DNA from: Symmachiella dynata
GTDB taxonomy: Bacteria > Planctomycetota > Planctomycetia > Planctomycetales > Planctomycetaceae
DNA: 64,000 nucleotides
Direction: 5' to 3'
Assembly: GCF_007747995.1 (NCBI RefSeq)
Contig: NZ_CP036276.1
Location: 2,781,001 to 2,845,000, forward strand
Each line of letters begins with the position of its first letter. The first letter of the stretch is position 1. Positions 3,659-9,210 of the stretch are shown piece after piece. The notes under the pieces are model-generated. The model did no database searches. It was not told the origin of the DNA and saw nothing but the letters and a program-made list of their open reading frames with translations. A program made the position numbers and the translations under genes.

Positions 3659-3724
3659 ACCGGAGAGCCAAACCCCGCCGACCGCGTCTGACTGCGGGCA
3701 GGGAAGTAGCTTTTAGTTGAGCGC

Positions 3725-3762
3725 ACAAAAAAAACCGCCGACGTATGCACGTCAACGGTTTC
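3725..3762 (-). terminator. Intrinsic terminator downstream of a PEP-CTERM remnant
   Basis: On the minus strand an AACCGTTGACGT / ACGTCGGCGGTT stem (12 pairs with two G-U) encloses a 4-base loop and is followed by eight T and then GTGCGC. It has the same build as the terminators after the intact PEP-CTERM genes. Confidence 0.75.
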
Positions 3763-3793
3763 CCTGCCCCACAAGGTTCTTTGACCAGCTATT

Positions 3794-3856
3794 CTAGACG
3801 GACTGCTGCCGTTTGCGTCGCCAGCCAACTCCGGCCCGAGCCAAGCCGCCTATTTA
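3794..3856 (-). pseudogene. Remnant of a PEP-CTERM gene (sorting tag only)
   Basis: Read on the minus strand this gives 'IGGLARAGVGWRRKRQQSV' and a stop. It lines up without gaps with the 'IGGLALVGYGVRRKRQQAA' tail of the intact gene at 5073. A stop codon lies directly before it and no upstream body or signal peptide can be found. A matching terminator lies 34 bases downstream, close to the 27-28 bases seen after intact genes. This is the eroded 3' end of a former cluster member. Confidence 0.7.
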
Positions 3857-3937
3857 AACTAGACGTATAAAGGTACGGCGAGCGTATGCACAATCTTCCG
3901 AAAATCCTTGAGTTTCAGAAAATAGCTGAATGCGCAC

Positions 3938-3970
3938 AAAAAAACGCCGACGCTTCACGCCGACGGTTGG
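3938..3970 (-). terminator. Intrinsic terminator (PEP-CTERM-cluster type)
   Basis: On the minus strand CGTCGGCG, a 5-base loop and CGTCGGCG pair through two G-U wobbles, then T7 and GTGCGC. The nearest upstream minus-strand gene is the PilZ-like gene ending at 4097, so it either ends that transcript or is left from a lost PEP-CTERM gene. Confidence 0.65.
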
Positions 3971-4096
3971 AAATTTAAGTTGCAATCTGTTCCGCGCAGT
4001 CTGACACCGGTTGTGCCGCCACGAGCAGTGATACGCCGGCGGAGCCCGGGAGACCGGCCAAGGGGTTGGCTTTCAAGTCGGGCCTGCAGAATCAAG

Positions 4097-4594
4097 TCAT
4101 TCGCCCGGCAGGGAGTCCACGATCCCCAGAAACTTGCCGCCACTCATCAGAAACTTTCCACAACCGGGGAAGGGCTGTTCCCAGCCCGCAGCTGTCCAGC
4201 AAATTTCCAACAACAGCGAAATGCTTTCTTCCTCAGCCGGAGCGTAGGTGAGGACGGCATGTGACGTTTGCAGCGGCTCGGAGTGGAGAAAACTGATCCC
4301 CCGTAAGGTCACGTCTTGCGAGTAGACTTGGATATCGCCCAGCGGGCAATCGACGTACTCAATCACGCCTTCATCGAAATTCACCGGCAGCACTTCGATG
4401 GGCCAACACAGCGGATAGCGATCCCGAGCACGACGTTCATCCTGTCGCAATTGGTCATTCGGGCAGCGCCGCTTGAAGAGGGACAGGTCGGCGAAACGCT
4501 CGTCGTGACGAATGCGTTTGAGCAAACGTTGAATAGCGGGCACATCCTGCCGCAGAACCTGTTTGACGCCATAGCTCAGCGTTGAAATGACCAT
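4097..4594 (-). CDS. PilZ-like domain protein (putative c-di-GMP binder)
   Basis: 165 residues, soluble. Two features of PilZ domains are visible in the right order. First, an arginine-rich entry 'RRARDRYPLCWPIEVLPV' (about residues 54-71) could supply the RxxxR motif. Second, 'DVTLRGISFL' (about 94-103) fits D/N-x-S/T-x-x-G. Planctomycete PilZ proteins often begin their domain with a similar 'R-x-x-R-Y-P' stretch. The N-terminal 45 residues are helical and charged. A role in cyclic di-GMP-dependent control is inference; the match is weak enough that a different beta-barrel is possible. It lies at the head of the PEP-CTERM cluster, on the same strand. Confidence 0.55.
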   Translation of the reverse strand: MVISTLSYGVKQVLRQDVPAIQRLLKRIRHDERFADLSLFKRRCPNDQLRQDERRARDRYPLCWPIEVLPVNFDEGVIEYVDCPLGDIQVYSQDVTLRGISFLHSEPLQTSHAVLTYAPAEEESISLLLEICWTAAGWEQPFPGCGKFLMSGGKFLGIVDSLPGE

Positions 4595-5012
4595 CGCCTT
4601 GCTTCCCGTATTTGGTTGGGGATGGAATGATGAACCGCGGATTGGGAACCCTCAGCGCCGCAAGATCGTGGTCACCACTTTAGCCCAGGCAGCGTGACCG
4701 GTCTGTCATCGAAAGGGCCAGTCGGTTTTCGAACGGCCCAGTCGGTTTTCAAAAGGCCCGGTACAGTCCATCTTGAACGACCAATACAAACGTAGTCCAC
4801 GGATTTCCACGTGTCAAATTTACTCAATACGCAGGGATTCCCTGAGGCTTTGAACCGGTTTGCAAAACGGGTGATGCTTGGACCAAAGGCTTGCAATTTT
4901 GTGTCCGCAGACCACGTCTCAGGGATGTATCAGCAGGTTTGGAAACGATAAGTAGGAACTATCCCTTAGCTGACCAAAAATTCCCGGAGATTATTAAAAA
5001 AACAACAGCGCA
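4595..5012. other. Intergenic stretch with a short tandem repeat
   Basis: No convincing gene; a 74-codon open frame on the minus strand over 4672-4896 has no homology I recognise. At 4711-4760 two head-to-tail copies of a 22-base unit (GGCCCAGTCGGTTTTC...) are present. Confidence 0.4.
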
Positions 5013-5047
5013 CGAAAAAACCGCCGACGTTTTTACGCCGACGGTTG
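5013..5047 (-). terminator. Intrinsic terminator of the PEP-CTERM gene at 5073
   Basis: Minus-strand stem AACCGTCGGCG / CGTCGGCGGTT (11 pairs, two of them G-U) with a 5-base loop, then T6 and CGTGCGC. It lies 27 bases past the stop codon. The segment from here through the sorting-tag codons is almost identical to 5823-5950. Confidence 0.85.
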
Positions 5048-5072
5048 GAAGGTCAATTGAGCGATTCAAACC

Positions 5073-5672
5073 TCAAGCAGCTTGTTGCCGCTTACGCCGC
5101 ACTCCGTATCCGACCAAGGCCAAGCCGCCGATGCCAAGCAGGGCAAACGTGCTTGGTTCGGGGACGGTCTGCACGACGATATTGTCGAACTGGTGGCCTT
5201 CTTCGTTATGTGTTCCCTGTACCCAGGAGACCGAGGTCAGATTGGAAAACGTGCTGTTGAAATTGAATTGCGTAAAGCCGAATACCGTTGGCGTGAAGGT
5301 CTGCATCGTTGTACCCCCGCCTGACAAGTTGCCAGTAAATGTGACCGGCGGTGAAGTGCCTAAAAAATGACCAAATGAGAGTTCGATGCTTAATAAATTA
5401 AAGGGCATGTTGTTGACATTCGACAAAGTCGCTACTCCGCCATCTATCGCCTGAAGAAGACTGGCCGACCCTGCATAGAAAACGTTTGCTGGTCCTCGAG
5501 CACGTAAATGGGTGCCCACAATTTGGAATCCGTCTTCGACGTATGGGCTGGGTACAATAATGCTATCGGGATCGGGGGTCTCAAAAACATCGAAGTCAAT
5601 CGTGACCATCCCCGCCTGAGCAGAGGAAACCAAAACAAGAGTGACCAAACCGGCAATAAGAACGTGTTTCAC
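5073..5672 (-). CDS. PEP-CTERM exported protein 1
   Basis: 199 residues, GTG start, ribosome-binding site AGAGG. The signal peptide is 'MKHVLIAGLVTLVLVSSAQA', likely cut after AQA. The body (about 21-170) is beta-rich, without cysteine ('IDFDVFETPDPDSIIVPSP', 'FNLLSIELSFGHFLG'). It looks like the secreted galactose-binding-like domains that often carry these tags. The C-terminus is a complete sorting tag: VPEPSTFALL, a hydrophobic span, then RRKRQQAA. In PEP-CTERM systems the tag is processed by an exosortase after export; no exosortase gene is in this window. The promoter at 5736 is shared with its neighbours and the 3' end is nearly identical to that of the gene at 5881. The molecular role of the body is unknown. 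Confidence 0.9.
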   Translation of the reverse strand: MKHVLIAGLVTLVLVSSAQAGMVTIDFDVFETPDPDSIIVPSPYVEDGFQIVGTHLRARGPANVFYAGSASLLQAIDGGVATLSNVNNMPFNLLSIELSFGHFLGTSPPVTFTGNLSGGGTTMQTFTPTVFGFTQFNFNSTFSNLTSVSWVQGTHNEEGHQFDNIVVQTVPEPSTFALLGIGGLALVGYGVRRKRQQAA

Positions 5673-5735
5673 GAGAAAGAACCTCTGAACCGAATGTGGT
5701 GATGAAAATAATCCACTTGCCTATTCCTAGTCACC

Positions 5736-5764
5736 ATTGTGCCCCAGGAAAACCGGCATATCAA
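5736..5764 (-). promoter_or_regulatory. Promoter of the PEP-CTERM gene at 5073
   Basis: On the minus strand TTGATA, 17 bases ending in GGGG, then CACAAT. This is a sigma-70-like pair, and the GGGGCACAATGG block is repeated at 6512 and 7421 with the same spacing. Start of transcription is expected about 60 bases before the GTG. Confidence 0.7.
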
Positions 5765-5822
5765 GCAGAAACGTCCCAAATCCTATAATTTCCCCAAAAC
5801 TGACCAGCGGCGCTCGCGCACG

Positions 5823-5855
5823 AAAAAACCGCCGACGTTTTCACGCCGACGGTTG
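5823..5855 (-). terminator. Intrinsic terminator of the PEP-CTERM gene at 5881
   Basis: Same stem as at 5013 with one loop-base difference, followed by T6 and CGTGCGC, 27 bases past the stop codon. Confidence 0.85.
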
Positions 5856-5880
5856 GAAGGTCAATTGAGCGATTCAAACC

Positions 5881-6444
5881 TCAAGCAGCTTGTTGCCGCT
5901 TACGCCGCACTCCGTATCCGACCAAGGCCAAGCCACCGATGCCGAGCAGGGCGAAGGTGGACGGTTCAGGGACGACGACGTGATCGTCGGTCCATGTTGC
6001 TTCAAAGGCGATGACAGAAAGCGGCTGAGAAAAACTGACATTCACAAAGAAGTTTTGCCCCGGCTGTAGAATCAGCGAAGGATCGGGAGCTTCAAACCAA
6101 ATCGTGTTGCCGTTCATGACGGTCATGTCCCAATCATCTTGCCCACCGCTGAATGGAGCGAGTCGAAAGACGTCATTGAATCCAGTTTGATCAATGACAA
6201 CCCCCGTCGGCAGGTCAAATGTGATATGAAAATCACTGACCGGCACATTGCCTCCCCAAGGAATATTCCCTTCGCCAACACCGGGCATTCCCCAACCATC
6301 TGAATTCAATAACCAGGGATTTCCAAAAGGATCCGTTCCGGATGTTCCAGCTCCACCCCAAGCTGAGACCACACCGGCGTTGGCAGTCGCTGAGGTGAGA
6401 GACATTGCAATCAGAGCGAGACTTAAAAGAATGAGTTTTTTCAT
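5881..6444 (-). CDS. PEP-CTERM exported protein 2
   Basis: 187 residues. The signal peptide 'MKKLILLSLALIAMSLTSA' with cleavage near ANA differs from the MKH(I/V/L)L type of the other three genes. The mature body is Gly/Trp/Asp-rich ('WGGAGTSGTDPFGNPWLLNS', 'FHITFDLPTGVVIDQTGF') and looks like a beta-sandwich. The C-terminal tag is VVPEPSTFALL, hydrophobic span, RRKRQQAA. The last 20 or so codons and the terminator are nearly identical in DNA to those of the gene at 5073, although the bodies are unrelated; that points to exchange of the 3' end. The promoter is of the shared type (6512). Function of the body unknown; probably cell-surface or envelope. Confidence 0.9.
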   Translation of the reverse strand: MKKLILLSLALIAMSLTSATANAGVVSAWGGAGTSGTDPFGNPWLLNSDGWGMPGVGEGNIPWGGNVPVSDFHITFDLPTGVVIDQTGFNDVFRLAPFSGGQDDWDMTVMNGNTIWFEAPDPSLILQPGQNFFVNVSFSQPLSVIAFEATWTDDHVVVPEPSTFALLGIGGLALVGYGVRRKRQQAA

Positions 6445-6511: not shown

Positions 6512-6540
6512 ATTGTGCCCCGCCACAATCAGAATATCAA
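6512..6540 (-). promoter_or_regulatory. Promoter of the PEP-CTERM gene at 5881
   Basis: Minus strand: TTGATA, 17-base spacer ending GGGG, CACAAT, then GG. Identical -35 and -10 to the site at 5736, while most of the spacer differs. Confidence 0.7.
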
Positions 6541-6664
6541 GAAAAATCGGCATGATCCCTATAATAATTCCAAAGTGAGTTATCCGGACGGATGAGTCGG
6601 AGGAGAGAGGAAGTTGGAAACAATCGAATCCGGCCCGCGCATCAACAACCACCCCCACAGCGCA

Positions 6665-6700
6665 CGAAAAAACCGCCGACGCACCCGCGTCGACGGTTTG
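6665..6700 (-). terminator. Intrinsic terminator of the PEP-CTERM gene at 6726
   Basis: Minus-strand stem AACCGTCGACGC / GCGTCGGCGGTT with a 4-base loop (GGGT), then T6 and CGTGCGC, 27 bases past the stop. The loop side differs from the other copies but the pairing is kept. Confidence 0.85.
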
Positions 6701-6725
6701 AAGTTCAATTATAGCAAATCAAGTT

Positions 6726-7358
6726 TCAGGCTGCTTGTTGCCGACTGCGACGGACTCCGTATCCGACCAAGGCGATGACACCAATGCCGAGCAGAGCGAA
6801 AGTGCTCGGTTCGGGGACGGCAGCAGTATTGCCGAAGCTAAGATTGTCCATGATAAATAAATCATTATTAGTGGTCGCGGTCTGATTGTGATCCAGAACG
6901 AAGCTCGAAAATGGTGTGTCTGAAATAACGCCAAAGAATTGGACTCCAGAATCAGTAGGTACTGTGACTGTCATGCCACCAGCAGTCAGAGTTGATCGTT
7001 CTGCACTAGAGAAATCAGCACCGACTGCCGTCACCGCACTAGGAAGTCCAAACGTGTGCGGTCCTGTTTCTGAAGTTCCGCCTCCTGAGGAGACACTCCA
7101 AACATCACCTACGAACTGATTTGAACTCACTTGAGGAAAACCCTGAGAGCTAACCCCCGGGTAAGAGAATGTCACAAGCCCCAACGTATGTGTCACATTT
7201 GCGGCAAGCGTTCCGGTATCGGGGAGGGTGAAGCTTTCTGTTTGGAATGCGGAAAGTTGTGCTTCCCAAGTCGCACGGTCGGTAAACGTAATCAGTCCCG
7301 CCTGAGCAGACGTAACGAAGCTAAGACTGACCAAACCGGCTAGGAGAATGTGTTTCAT
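6726..7358 (-). CDS. PEP-CTERM exported protein 3
   Basis: 210 residues. The signal peptide is 'MKHILLAGLVSLSFVTSAQA', nearly the same as in the gene at 5073. The body contains 'FTDRATWEAQLSAFQTESF' and 'TSETGPHTFGLPSAVTAVGA'. This resembles the many PEP-CTERM proteins with a F-x-D-R-x-x-F/W-x-x-A opening and a lectin-like beta-sandwich, which is a family impression only. The tag is AAVPEPSTFALL, a hydrophobic span and RRSRQQAA. Promoter at 7421, terminator at 6665. It is exported and probably exosortase-processed; substrate or partner unknown. Confidence 0.9.
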   Translation of the reverse strand: MKHILLAGLVSLSFVTSAQAGLITFTDRATWEAQLSAFQTESFTLPDTGTLAANVTHTLGLVTFSYPGVSSQGFPQVSSNQFVGDVWSVSSGGGTSETGPHTFGLPSAVTAVGADFSSAERSTLTAGGMTVTVPTDSGVQFFGVISDTPFSSFVLDHNQTATTNNDLFIMDNLSFGNTAAVPEPSTFALLGIGVIALVGYGVRRSRQQAA

Positions 7359-7420: not shown

Positions 7421-7449
7421 ATTGTGCCCCAGGATTACCCGCATTTCAA
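7421..7449 (-). promoter_or_regulatory. Promoter of the PEP-CTERM gene at 6726
   Basis: Minus strand: TTGAAA, 17-base spacer ending GGGG, CACAAT, then GG. The leader just downstream shares GGAATAGGCAAG with the leader of the gene at 5073. Confidence 0.7.
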
Positions 7450-8151: not shown

Positions 8152-8182
8152 AAAAAACGCCGACGTTTTCACGCCGACGGTT
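8152..8182 (-). terminator. Intrinsic terminator of the PEP-CTERM gene at 8209
   Basis: Minus-strand stem CCGTCGGCG / CGTCGGCG with a short loop followed by TTTTTT, 28 bases past the stop. It lacks the GTGCGC that follows the T-run in the other copies. Confidence 0.8.
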
Positions 8183-8208
8183 GGAAGGTTTATTGAGCAG
8201 TTCAAGCC

Positions 8209-8895
8209 TCAGGCCGCTTGTTGCCGCCGACGCCGGACACCGTATCCGACCAAGGCTAGGCCACCGATGCCGAGCAGGGCGAAGGTGCTGGGTTCGGGGA
8301 CGGCGACCATCCCGTTGACGACCAGGTTGTCAAAACCAGCGTTGTTGCCAAAGCTACCGGGGGTGTTGCTGGCCGTGATGCGTAGGATGTAGTTCGTATT
8401 CGCGGCGAGTATGTTCCCCGACAAGTCAAAGGAGACCGGTTGGGGCTGAACTGGCGGATTATCGTTTTGTGGATAGATGTTGTTGACCGAGTCGGAATCA
8501 AGAATCCCGCCGTTCAACAGATCAATCCGCAGGTCCAGATCTCGGTTTTTCGGCTGAAAAATCCCGTTCCGATCCAGAATGTAAGCATCGAGTGTCACCG
8601 TGTCCAATTGCAACGCGGACGAACCCACGTTGAGTGCAATGTCGACTGTCCATTGCCCCGCAGGAGCAAAGTTTTTATTCACGGCAAAGATGTTTTGAGC
8701 ATCAGGCGTGTCAAACAGGTTGTCGGAGGCCGTCAGTGACCCAGGATCAGCGACACCGTTGACCGTCCAGGTCAGATTCGAAGCGGTTGCTCCGCTGACC
8801 GTACGTCCGTCAAAATCCGTGGAAGCAATAATTCCAGCCTCGACGTTTCCTACCAAACCAAGCGCGACCATGCCGGCAAGAAGAAGGTGTTTCAT
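8209..8895 (-). CDS. PEP-CTERM exported protein 4
   Basis: 228 residues from the ATG at 8895; an in-frame ATG 21 bases upstream would only lengthen the signal peptide. The signal peptide is 'MKHLLLAGMVALGLVGNVEA'. The body contains 'STDFDGRTVSGATASNLTW', 'GQWTVDIALNVGSSALQLD' and 'NTNYILRITASNTPGSFGNN'. This is a beta-sandwich pattern like carbohydrate-binding or DUF4465-type secreted domains. The tag is VAVPEPSTFALL, a hydrophobic span, RRRRQQAA. It lacks the GGGGCACAAT promoter of the other three; a looser TTGTCG-N16-TATAAC lies at 8963-8990. Its 3' end is the most diverged of the four. Confidence 0.9.
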   Translation of the reverse strand: MKHLLLAGMVALGLVGNVEAGIIASTDFDGRTVSGATASNLTWTVNGVADPGSLTASDNLFDTPDAQNIFAVNKNFAPAGQWTVDIALNVGSSALQLDTVTLDAYILDRNGIFQPKNRDLDLRIDLLNGGILDSDSVNNIYPQNDNPPVQPQPVSFDLSGNILAANTNYILRITASNTPGSFGNNAGFDNLVVNGMVAVPEPSTFALLGIGGLALVGYGVRRRRQQAA

Positions 8896-8990: not shown

Positions 8991-9090
8991 ATTCGACAAG
9001 AATTCCAAAATAGTACAGCTGCCGGTCCCGATTCGAGTTCTCCGAGCGGCAATACGGCACAAAAACGGCCCGCAATTCGGCACACAGCGC

Positions 9091-9126
9091 ACAAAAAAAC
9101 CGCCGACGCCCCCGCGCCGACGGTTG
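9091..9126 (-). terminator. Intrinsic terminator downstream of the second PEP-CTERM remnant
   Basis: Minus-strand AACCGTCGGCG / CGTCGGCGGTT stem, T7 and GTGCGC; same build as at 5013. Confidence 0.75.
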
Positions 9127-9149
9127 GAGTTCAAATTGCCGGTCAAAAC

Positions 9150-9210
9150 TCTAGCCGCATGTCGCTGCTTGCGACGGACTGTATCCAACCAAGGCCAAGC
9201 CACCTACAGC
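9150..9210 (-). pseudogene. Frameshifted remnant of a PEP-CTERM gene
   Basis: On the minus strand 'GGLALVGY' is readable in one frame. After the equivalent of a 2-base deletion, 'TVRRKQRHAA' is readable in another. Together they match 'GGLALVGYGVRRKRQQAA' of the intact genes. The terminator lies 25 bases beyond the expected stop. No signal peptide or body can be found upstream on the minus strand; the cupin gene begins close by. Confidence 0.7.

Follow-up and report, generated by a model that had tools for sequence, protein, structure and literature searches.

Genes for unrelated PEP-CTERM proteins in Symmachiella dynata share near-constant DNA at their ends, consistent with replacement of bodies by recombination

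The window analyzed here is a 64,000-nucleotide stretch of the Symmachiella dynata genome (G000:C1:2781001-2845000; source genome, G000, of 7,767,809 bases in one contig). It contains four genes for PEP-CTERM proteins, A to D, and three remnants that resemble their 3′ ends and lack a body (Table 1). For comparison we used the two other Symmachiella genomes in our collection, which holds three genomes of the genus: the congener G066 (7.6 Mb, 6 contigs) and G023.

Table 1. Features of the window, in window coordinates, and further genes of the source genome with the same tag
Feature	Position	Strand	Description
Gene A	5073..5672	-	PEP-CTERM protein, 199 aa, GTG start, MKH-type signal peptide
Promoter-like box of A	5736..5764	-	TTGATA-17-CACAAT, consensus match only
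3′ block of A	5008..5165	-	tag codons 5165-5076, stop 5075-5073, UTR, terminator stem 5046-5019
Gene B	5881..6444	-	PEP-CTERM protein, 187 aa, different signal peptide (MKKLILLSLALIAMS)
Promoter-like box of B	6512..6540	-	TTGATA-17-CACAAT, consensus match
3′ block of B	5816..5973	-	near-identical to that of A from mid-tag; terminator stem 5854-5827
Gene C	6726..7358	-	PEP-CTERM protein, 210 aa, MKH signal peptide
Promoter-like box of C	7421..7449	-	TTGAAA-17-CACAAT, consensus match
3′ block of C	6660..6818	-	tag and terminator (hairpin 6671-6698)
Gene D	8209..8895	-	PEP-CTERM protein, MKH signal peptide; internal ATG taken as start (ORF list: 8916)
3′ block of D	8152..8301	-	tag and terminator with shorter stem (8179-8158)
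Remnant E	9087..9204	-	second half of tag, UTR and intact terminator (9125-9098), without body
Remnant F	3721..3868	-	second half of tag (read GGLARAGVGWRRKRQQSV) and terminator (3726-3760), without body
Remnant F2	3932..3972	-	lone terminator
Flank and 3′ block of A	4109..5167	-	82% identical to congener locus with unrelated body upstream of tag
K1	source genome, 4655479		tag and terminator DNA
K2	source genome, 4483121		tag and terminator DNA
K3	source genome, 4573364		tag and terminator DNA
K4	source genome, 212155		tag, different terminator
K5	source genome, 671217		tag, different terminator
K6	source genome, 3895993		tag without intact body

A search of the source genome with the protein sequence of the tag gave 28 matches (E up to 10), and 23 intact PEP-CTERM frames were read in it. 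Seven genes, namely A, B, C, D, K1, K2 and K3, have both the tag and the terminator DNA and are referred to here as cassette genes; apart from the tag-only K4 and K5, the remaining 14 PEP-CTERM genes bear different tags. PF07589 and TIGR02595 scored above cut-off in all nine proteins tested (A, B, C, D and K1 to K5), and putative N-terminal signal peptides were recognized by eye in the translations of the PEP-CTERM genes. The frame listing comprised 85 frames, from which five that were not PEP-CTERM were removed before bodies were compared. Two exosortase matches (PF09721) lie above cut-off in the genome, with 215 and 188 bits, and the tagged proteins probably reach the surface through exosortase. 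At G000:C1:1569994-1570752 (L320), an exosortase domain opens a 1751-aa open frame, the seen part of which continues into a repeat-rich region that is TPR-like by eye; directly upstream lies a small protein gene with a PEP-CTERM-like end (VPEMSS). A separate PEP-CTERM pair, at G000:C1:3369810 and 3499174, has bodies that are 98% identical (218 aa), 129 kb apart on opposite strands. No match to a window gene or to gene A was found in the plasmid collection. The window also contains an unexplained 56-base direct repeat, 91% identical, at 428-483 and 1650-1705 (TCTAACGGACGAAA..TCTAGGGAGTGGCCAGATGA).

The 3′ block common to the seven cassette genes spans ∼155 bp and consists of 30 tag codons (from VPEPST to the stop), the stop, the 3′ UTR and an intrinsic terminator. 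An earlier note on this DNA had described the 3′ ends of A and B as nearly identical, noncoding 3′ UTR included, with a shared coding part of about 40 codons. The near-identity was borne out, and the coding part is 30 codons long. The two ends are 94% identical over 159 bases (blastn E 5.9e-66), with nine mismatches at positions 6, 12, 13, 14, 18, 21, 30, 39 and 132 from tag base 1 and none more until base 159, where similarity stops just past the terminator T-run and GTGCGC. Eight of these mismatches fall in tag bases 1-39 and one in the next 119, and the near-identical stretch resembles a tract copied recently between the two genes, starting inside the tag. The tails of C (6665) and D (8152), which the earlier note had proposed for alignment at the DNA level, proved to be more diverged copies of the same block (ungapped identity 63% and 84%; blastn identity 80% and 87%).

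Identity profiles in 15-base bins over the seven cassette genes (21 pairs) revealed a step at the border between body and tag. Specifically, of the ten bins upstream of the tag, nine were at background, with identities of 0.22-0.30, and the one adjoining the tag reached 0.37, so that the bodies indeed lack resemblance to one another, as had been claimed for A and B. Within the tag, identity per bin rose to 0.66-0.91. The 30 bases preceding the terminator 3′ arm gave 0.71-0.72, and the arm with its T-run 0.95-0.97. Identity then fell to 0.62 over the next 5 bases, and to 0.25-0.33 once 20 bases past the point where the 3′ arm begins. With 18 genes of S. dynata and G066 (153 pairs) the values were 0.25-0.28 in the body, 0.71-0.90 in the tag, 0.98-0.99 in the terminator 3′ arm, which is the most conserved piece of the block, and 0.26-0.31 at 20 bases or more beyond where that arm begins. 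Such a step in identity rules out simple tandem duplication followed by uniform divergence. NCBIfam NF038120 matched A (40 bits), C (33) and K2 (28.5) below threshold, in C and K2 mostly around the tag, and these matches were not used as a sign of common bodies. The AlphaFold models of A and B alone are of low confidence (mean pLDDT 34.4 and 45.1). Most matches in G023 are confined to the tag and do not extend over the terminator, and one of the 24 terminator-bearing genes comes from that genome.

The hairpin at the end of the block (9-13 pairs and a 4-base loop, then a T-run) reads as a terminator. Compared with shuffled sequences, its folding gave z-scores of −3.65 to −4.19 in A, B, C and E and −2.49 in D; for K2 the z-score was −1.45, with 18 of 200 shuffles folding as well, and is thus within chance. 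A generic terminator scan showed no excess (7 hairpins vs. 6.3 in shuffles), and C was absent from its list. One could suppose that selection alone produced the shared ends, the tag being kept for exosortase and the terminator and promoter for expression, with codon bias making the tags alike. The strong constraint on the tag amino acids fits this idea, as does the rank of the 3′ arm in conservation. However, at residues common to the A and B tags, 23 of 30 codons are identical, compared to 10.4 expected from codon usage, and the z-scores for codon identity are 1.7-4.9 across all 21 pairs (1.7-4.4 in the other 20). Moreover, the identity of A and B extends through the UTR, and the shared-terminator pattern had no match at any of the 14 PEP-CTERM genes of the genome with other tags. 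We therefore regard selection alone as highly improbable. These data uphold the earlier argument that the conservation exceeds what selection on the tag would give, since UTR and terminator are included and identical codons are in excess.

The data also supported a second shared block, made up of the putative promoter and the signal peptide. Five of the seven cassette genes (A, C, D, K1 and K2) have the signal-peptide block in common, a TTGA(T/A)A-17-CACAAT promoter-like box is present in A, B and C, and a similar CACAAT box was noted by eye in K1 and K2. Among 13 genes with MKH or MKQ starts, identity fell from 0.86 over coding bases 1-15 to 0.65 at 45-60, 0.49 at 60-75 and 0.28-0.29 from base 75, and the upstream CACAATGG box reached 0.92 (36 pairs); five genes with starts missed by the pattern were left out of this profile, among them 1047589, which begins with MKH. 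Different signal peptides are found in B, K3 and K4, and K3, which lacks both the shared signal peptide and the shared promoter box, has its own of each. Hence the idea that signal peptides and promoters are common to the members holds for only some of them and fails for K3. Because B and K3 pair the 3′ block with different signal peptides, the 5′ and 3′ blocks are separable.

To place the blocks in their genomic context, we compared the loci with those of G066. At three syntenic loci, those of A, K1 and K2, the flank, terminator and tag are kept (82-94%) and the body is unrelated, the conserved stretch ending within 5 bases of the tag start; the same tail occurs on other bodies in a related genome, which the earlier note had suggested looking for. 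At K2, the flank, terminator and tag are 93.7% identical to G066 C3 over 2.2 kb, and the alignment ends exactly at tag base 1. There are zero mismatches to the congener gene from tag base 44 to 177, the bodies do not align, and at the 5′ end the alignment resumes 48 bases inside the gene, in the signal peptide (89.4%). Between these conserved ends S. dynata has one gene and G066 has three, none with a K2-like body; a search for the K2 body across the family, in 170 whole genomes, gave a match in its own genome and in none of the 169 others, which include both congeners. At K1, the alignment (89.5%) ends 5 bases beyond the tag start and resumes from 235 bases upstream of the gene, with several genes between the conserved ends in G066. 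The K1 terminator loop is unlike that of the congener, as are the ∼70 bases that follow it, and the flank further on matches again. Upstream of K1, another gene is followed by a same-type terminator that has no tag and is conserved in the congener (G000:C1:4656383 and G066 C3:401888). At A, where the comparison covers the 3′ side, 1.06 kb of flank, terminator and tag are 81.9% identical to the locus of G066 gene 1047589, ending 2 bases beyond the tag start, and the bodies are unrelated. Because the congener has several genes between the conserved ends at K1 and K2, differential loss from an ancestral array fits these two loci equally.

Two further genes are present or absent as a whole. K3 is missing from G066 over 1.5 kb, with flank alignments that overlap by 14 bases, and K4 is missing where S. 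dynata has 1,071 bases and G066 has 10. These indels, and the occurrence of 5′ and 3′ blocks apart from each other (B, K3 and K4), limit the earlier proposal that bodies are swapped between fixed ends, which otherwise gained from the second shared block at the 5′ end. We then compared the bodies with 289 kb of G066. None of the seven cassette bodies had a homolog there (tblastn E 1e-5), whereas 11 of the 14 other PEP-CTERM bodies did (Fisher P 0.0010); when the tag-only K4 and K5 were added to the cassette class, the counts were 1 of 9 versus 11 of 14 (P 0.0028), the body of K4 having no homolog in this DNA and that of K5 having one at 97%. The 289 kb had been chosen for tags found and for syntenic sites, so that untagged homologs elsewhere in G066 would be missed, except for K2.

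The earlier note had called the tail an exchangeable 3′ cassette. The A-B tract and the K1 terminator loop are in line with this in that they show copying of 3′ DNA, but at three loci tag, terminator and flank are what stays. A stronger form of the same idea is that tag, stop and terminator are a small mobile unit that inserts behind open frames. K3, with its own promoter and signal peptide and yet the shared 3′ block, would suit such an element, and so would 3′ remnants without bodies, of which seven were examined in two genomes. However, in G066 the entire genes K3 and K4, and not just their tags, are absent; at K1, K2 and A it is the tag that was retained; and insertion of a 3′ block alone behind an existing body was seen at none of the five loci compared with G066 (A, K1, K2, K3 and K4). 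Nor were target-site repeats seen, and the remnants begin at differing tag bases, from 24 to 63 by gapped alignment. A mobile 3′ element is thus a very unlikely explanation. Four of the seven remnants, which include those at window 3721-3868 and 9087-9204 and at G066 C2:1042137 and 1044214, start within tag bases 34-37 in gapped alignments, with P values of 0.026 and 0.027 under two scoring sets and 0.27 under a third. A common breakpoint was discarded, as the gapped P depends on scoring and ungapped alignment shows no clustering (P 0.96). A candidate recombination hot-spot motif, GTCGGCGG, was likewise rejected, with 42 occurrences versus 38 expected in 223 kb of the species' own DNA.

The most direct view of exchange came from three genes that stand in a row in G066, X (268607), Y (267318) and Z (266418). 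X and Y are alike in promoter, signal and body, with 98-113 matching columns in each block of 120 and 143 matches in the last 150 body bases. After the stop, X instead matches Z, at 179 of 196 positions over about 200 bases, ∼145 of which lie past the terminator, while the similarity of Y to X is gone past base 60 after the stop and the two show no resemblance past the terminator. The bodies of X and Z do not align. Judged from these alignments, X is a mosaic with the promoter and body of Y and the 3′ DNA of Z. The junction lies in or near the tag and cannot be placed more exactly because the X tag is about equally far from those of Y and Z (11 and 12 differences, respectively, in 93). Unequal recombination between tags in an array would be the simplest history for X. 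Two further results point the same way. First, a home-made, PHI-like recombination test on 24 3′ blocks found a fraction of 0.319 incompatible neighbor pairs compared to 0.395 in permuted data, a modest P of 0.014; this set left out the G023 gene and G066 510217, 517077 and 1181739, and included four added genes without the terminator pattern. Second, three pairs of homologous bodies (41, 49 and 62% at the amino acid level) bear tags of different classes.

These findings also bear on birth and death without exchange, according to which whole framed genes are duplicated or imported whole and often lost, and bodies diverge much faster than tag, UTR and terminator. Haft 2006 (PMC1569441) attributes lineage-specific tags to frequent duplication and loss. 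K3 and K4 are whole-gene indels of the kind expected, X and Y are a recent tandem duplicate in promoter and body, and a sharing pair in strain ZRK34 is a plain duplication, because the two genes with a common tag and 3′ DNA have homologous bodies (57% at the amino acid level). However, the UTR and flanks are 82-94% conserved where the coding body has no resemblance, identity rises between body and tag as a step within a few bases and not as a gradient, and X unites a Y-like 5′ part and body with Z-like 3′ DNA. We consider birth and death without exchange an unlikely account of the whole, although less so than the two alternatives above.

The explanation that we favor, and hold to be probably correct, is that the ends of these genes remain near-constant and their bodies are replaced by unrelated ones through unequal homologous recombination or gene conversion at the repeated ends. 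The frame would consist of the 5′ block (promoter and signal peptide) and the 3′ block (sorting tag, stop, UTR and intrinsic terminator). As copies of the end blocks, each roughly 150 bp of DNA or longer, are spread over the genome, they could serve as a substrate for homologous recombination between copies, with RecA-type recombination the likely agent. Unequal crossing over in arrays, together with gene conversion, would join bodies to the ends of other copies. Such recombination would multiply and delete genes, homogenize their ends and leave the bodies as the variable part, and tags without bodies would be its debris. A body that landed in the frame would at once be transcribed, exported, tagged and terminated, and the resulting turnover of surface proteins may be selected as beneficial.

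Similar arrangements were found outside the genus. In Schlesneria MAGs, three same-genome pairs, drawn from genes L230 and L239 (CAIVEI) and L224, L246 and L273 (CAIULL), have in common tag and/or terminator DNA of another sequence, and their bodies do not align (blastp E 0.054, 5.1 and 0.26). The pattern may thus be general in planctomycetes. A contig binned as Pseudomonadales (L208; JAHRVQ010000026.1, 82825-94345) has a PEP-CTERM gene at 5368-6093, adjoining AraC-type regulator genes, with Symmachiella-type signal-peptide DNA (82% over 83 bases), tag-terminator DNA (78% over 153) and an unrelated body; the rest of its 11.5 kb gave no other match to the loci fetched from three genomes. This one contig, for which mis-binning or a chimera is possible, is a hint that framed genes may pass to other phyla. 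More broadly, and only tentatively, the frame could be an open platform, in which planctomycetes would keep inserting unrelated bodies, some of them imported, between a constant promoter and signal and a constant tag and terminator by recombination at these ends. Every genus would have tag-terminator DNA of its own, and framed genes could reach other phyla.

PEP-CTERM proteins have so far appeared as fast-evolving orphans with a common tag, explained by duplication and loss. Haft 2006 (PMC1569441) explains in this way "rapidly evolving protein sets" with little orthology among congeners and with tags that form species-specific clades; lineage-specific expansion was already known. The Symmachiella proteins are like other PEP-CTERM/exosortase substrates (TIGR02595, PF07589; PMC1569441) in having a signal peptide, a variable body and a PEP motif followed by a hydrophobic stretch and a basic end, and in their species-specific tag clades. 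They differ from that description: the tag there is a protein module, whereas the repeated unit here is DNA that includes UTR and terminator, and here, unlike under duplication and loss, one locus carries different bodies in two genomes and one gene is a mosaic. The DNA motif of that paper is upstream and proteobacterial. In the open-access literature, as represented by titles and abstract openings and with subscription papers outside its scope, no shared tag-terminator DNA block or in-place body replacement was described. If the end blocks are recombination blocks, orphan bodies, species-specific tags and poor orthology would share one cause, and there would be a one-step route from a new or foreign coding sequence to an exported surface protein. 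The hosts of such a route would be bacteria with an attached lifestyle, on algae among other surfaces; the source of the window is a marine planctomycete.

Among other known systems, integron cassette arrays, like the genes described here, line up unrelated frames in the same orientation, with a 3′ element that is repeated. The repeat here, however, is half coding, as it contains the tag, and ends in a hairpin of 9-13 pairs with a 4-base loop and a T-run; this short, T-followed 3′ hairpin looks unlike an attC site. Programmed antigenic or phase variation involves an expressed locus and silent donors with a high switching rate, and silent donors are argued against here because the copies have promoter-like boxes, which are consensus matches. 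Neisserial pilin and opa are families of surface proteins that diversify by recombination between conserved ends. They differ from the present genes in that the bodies here are unrelated sequences and not related variants, and in that the copies here carry their own promoter-like boxes where examined, but there, and probably here, the conserved ends provide homology for exchange of the part between them.
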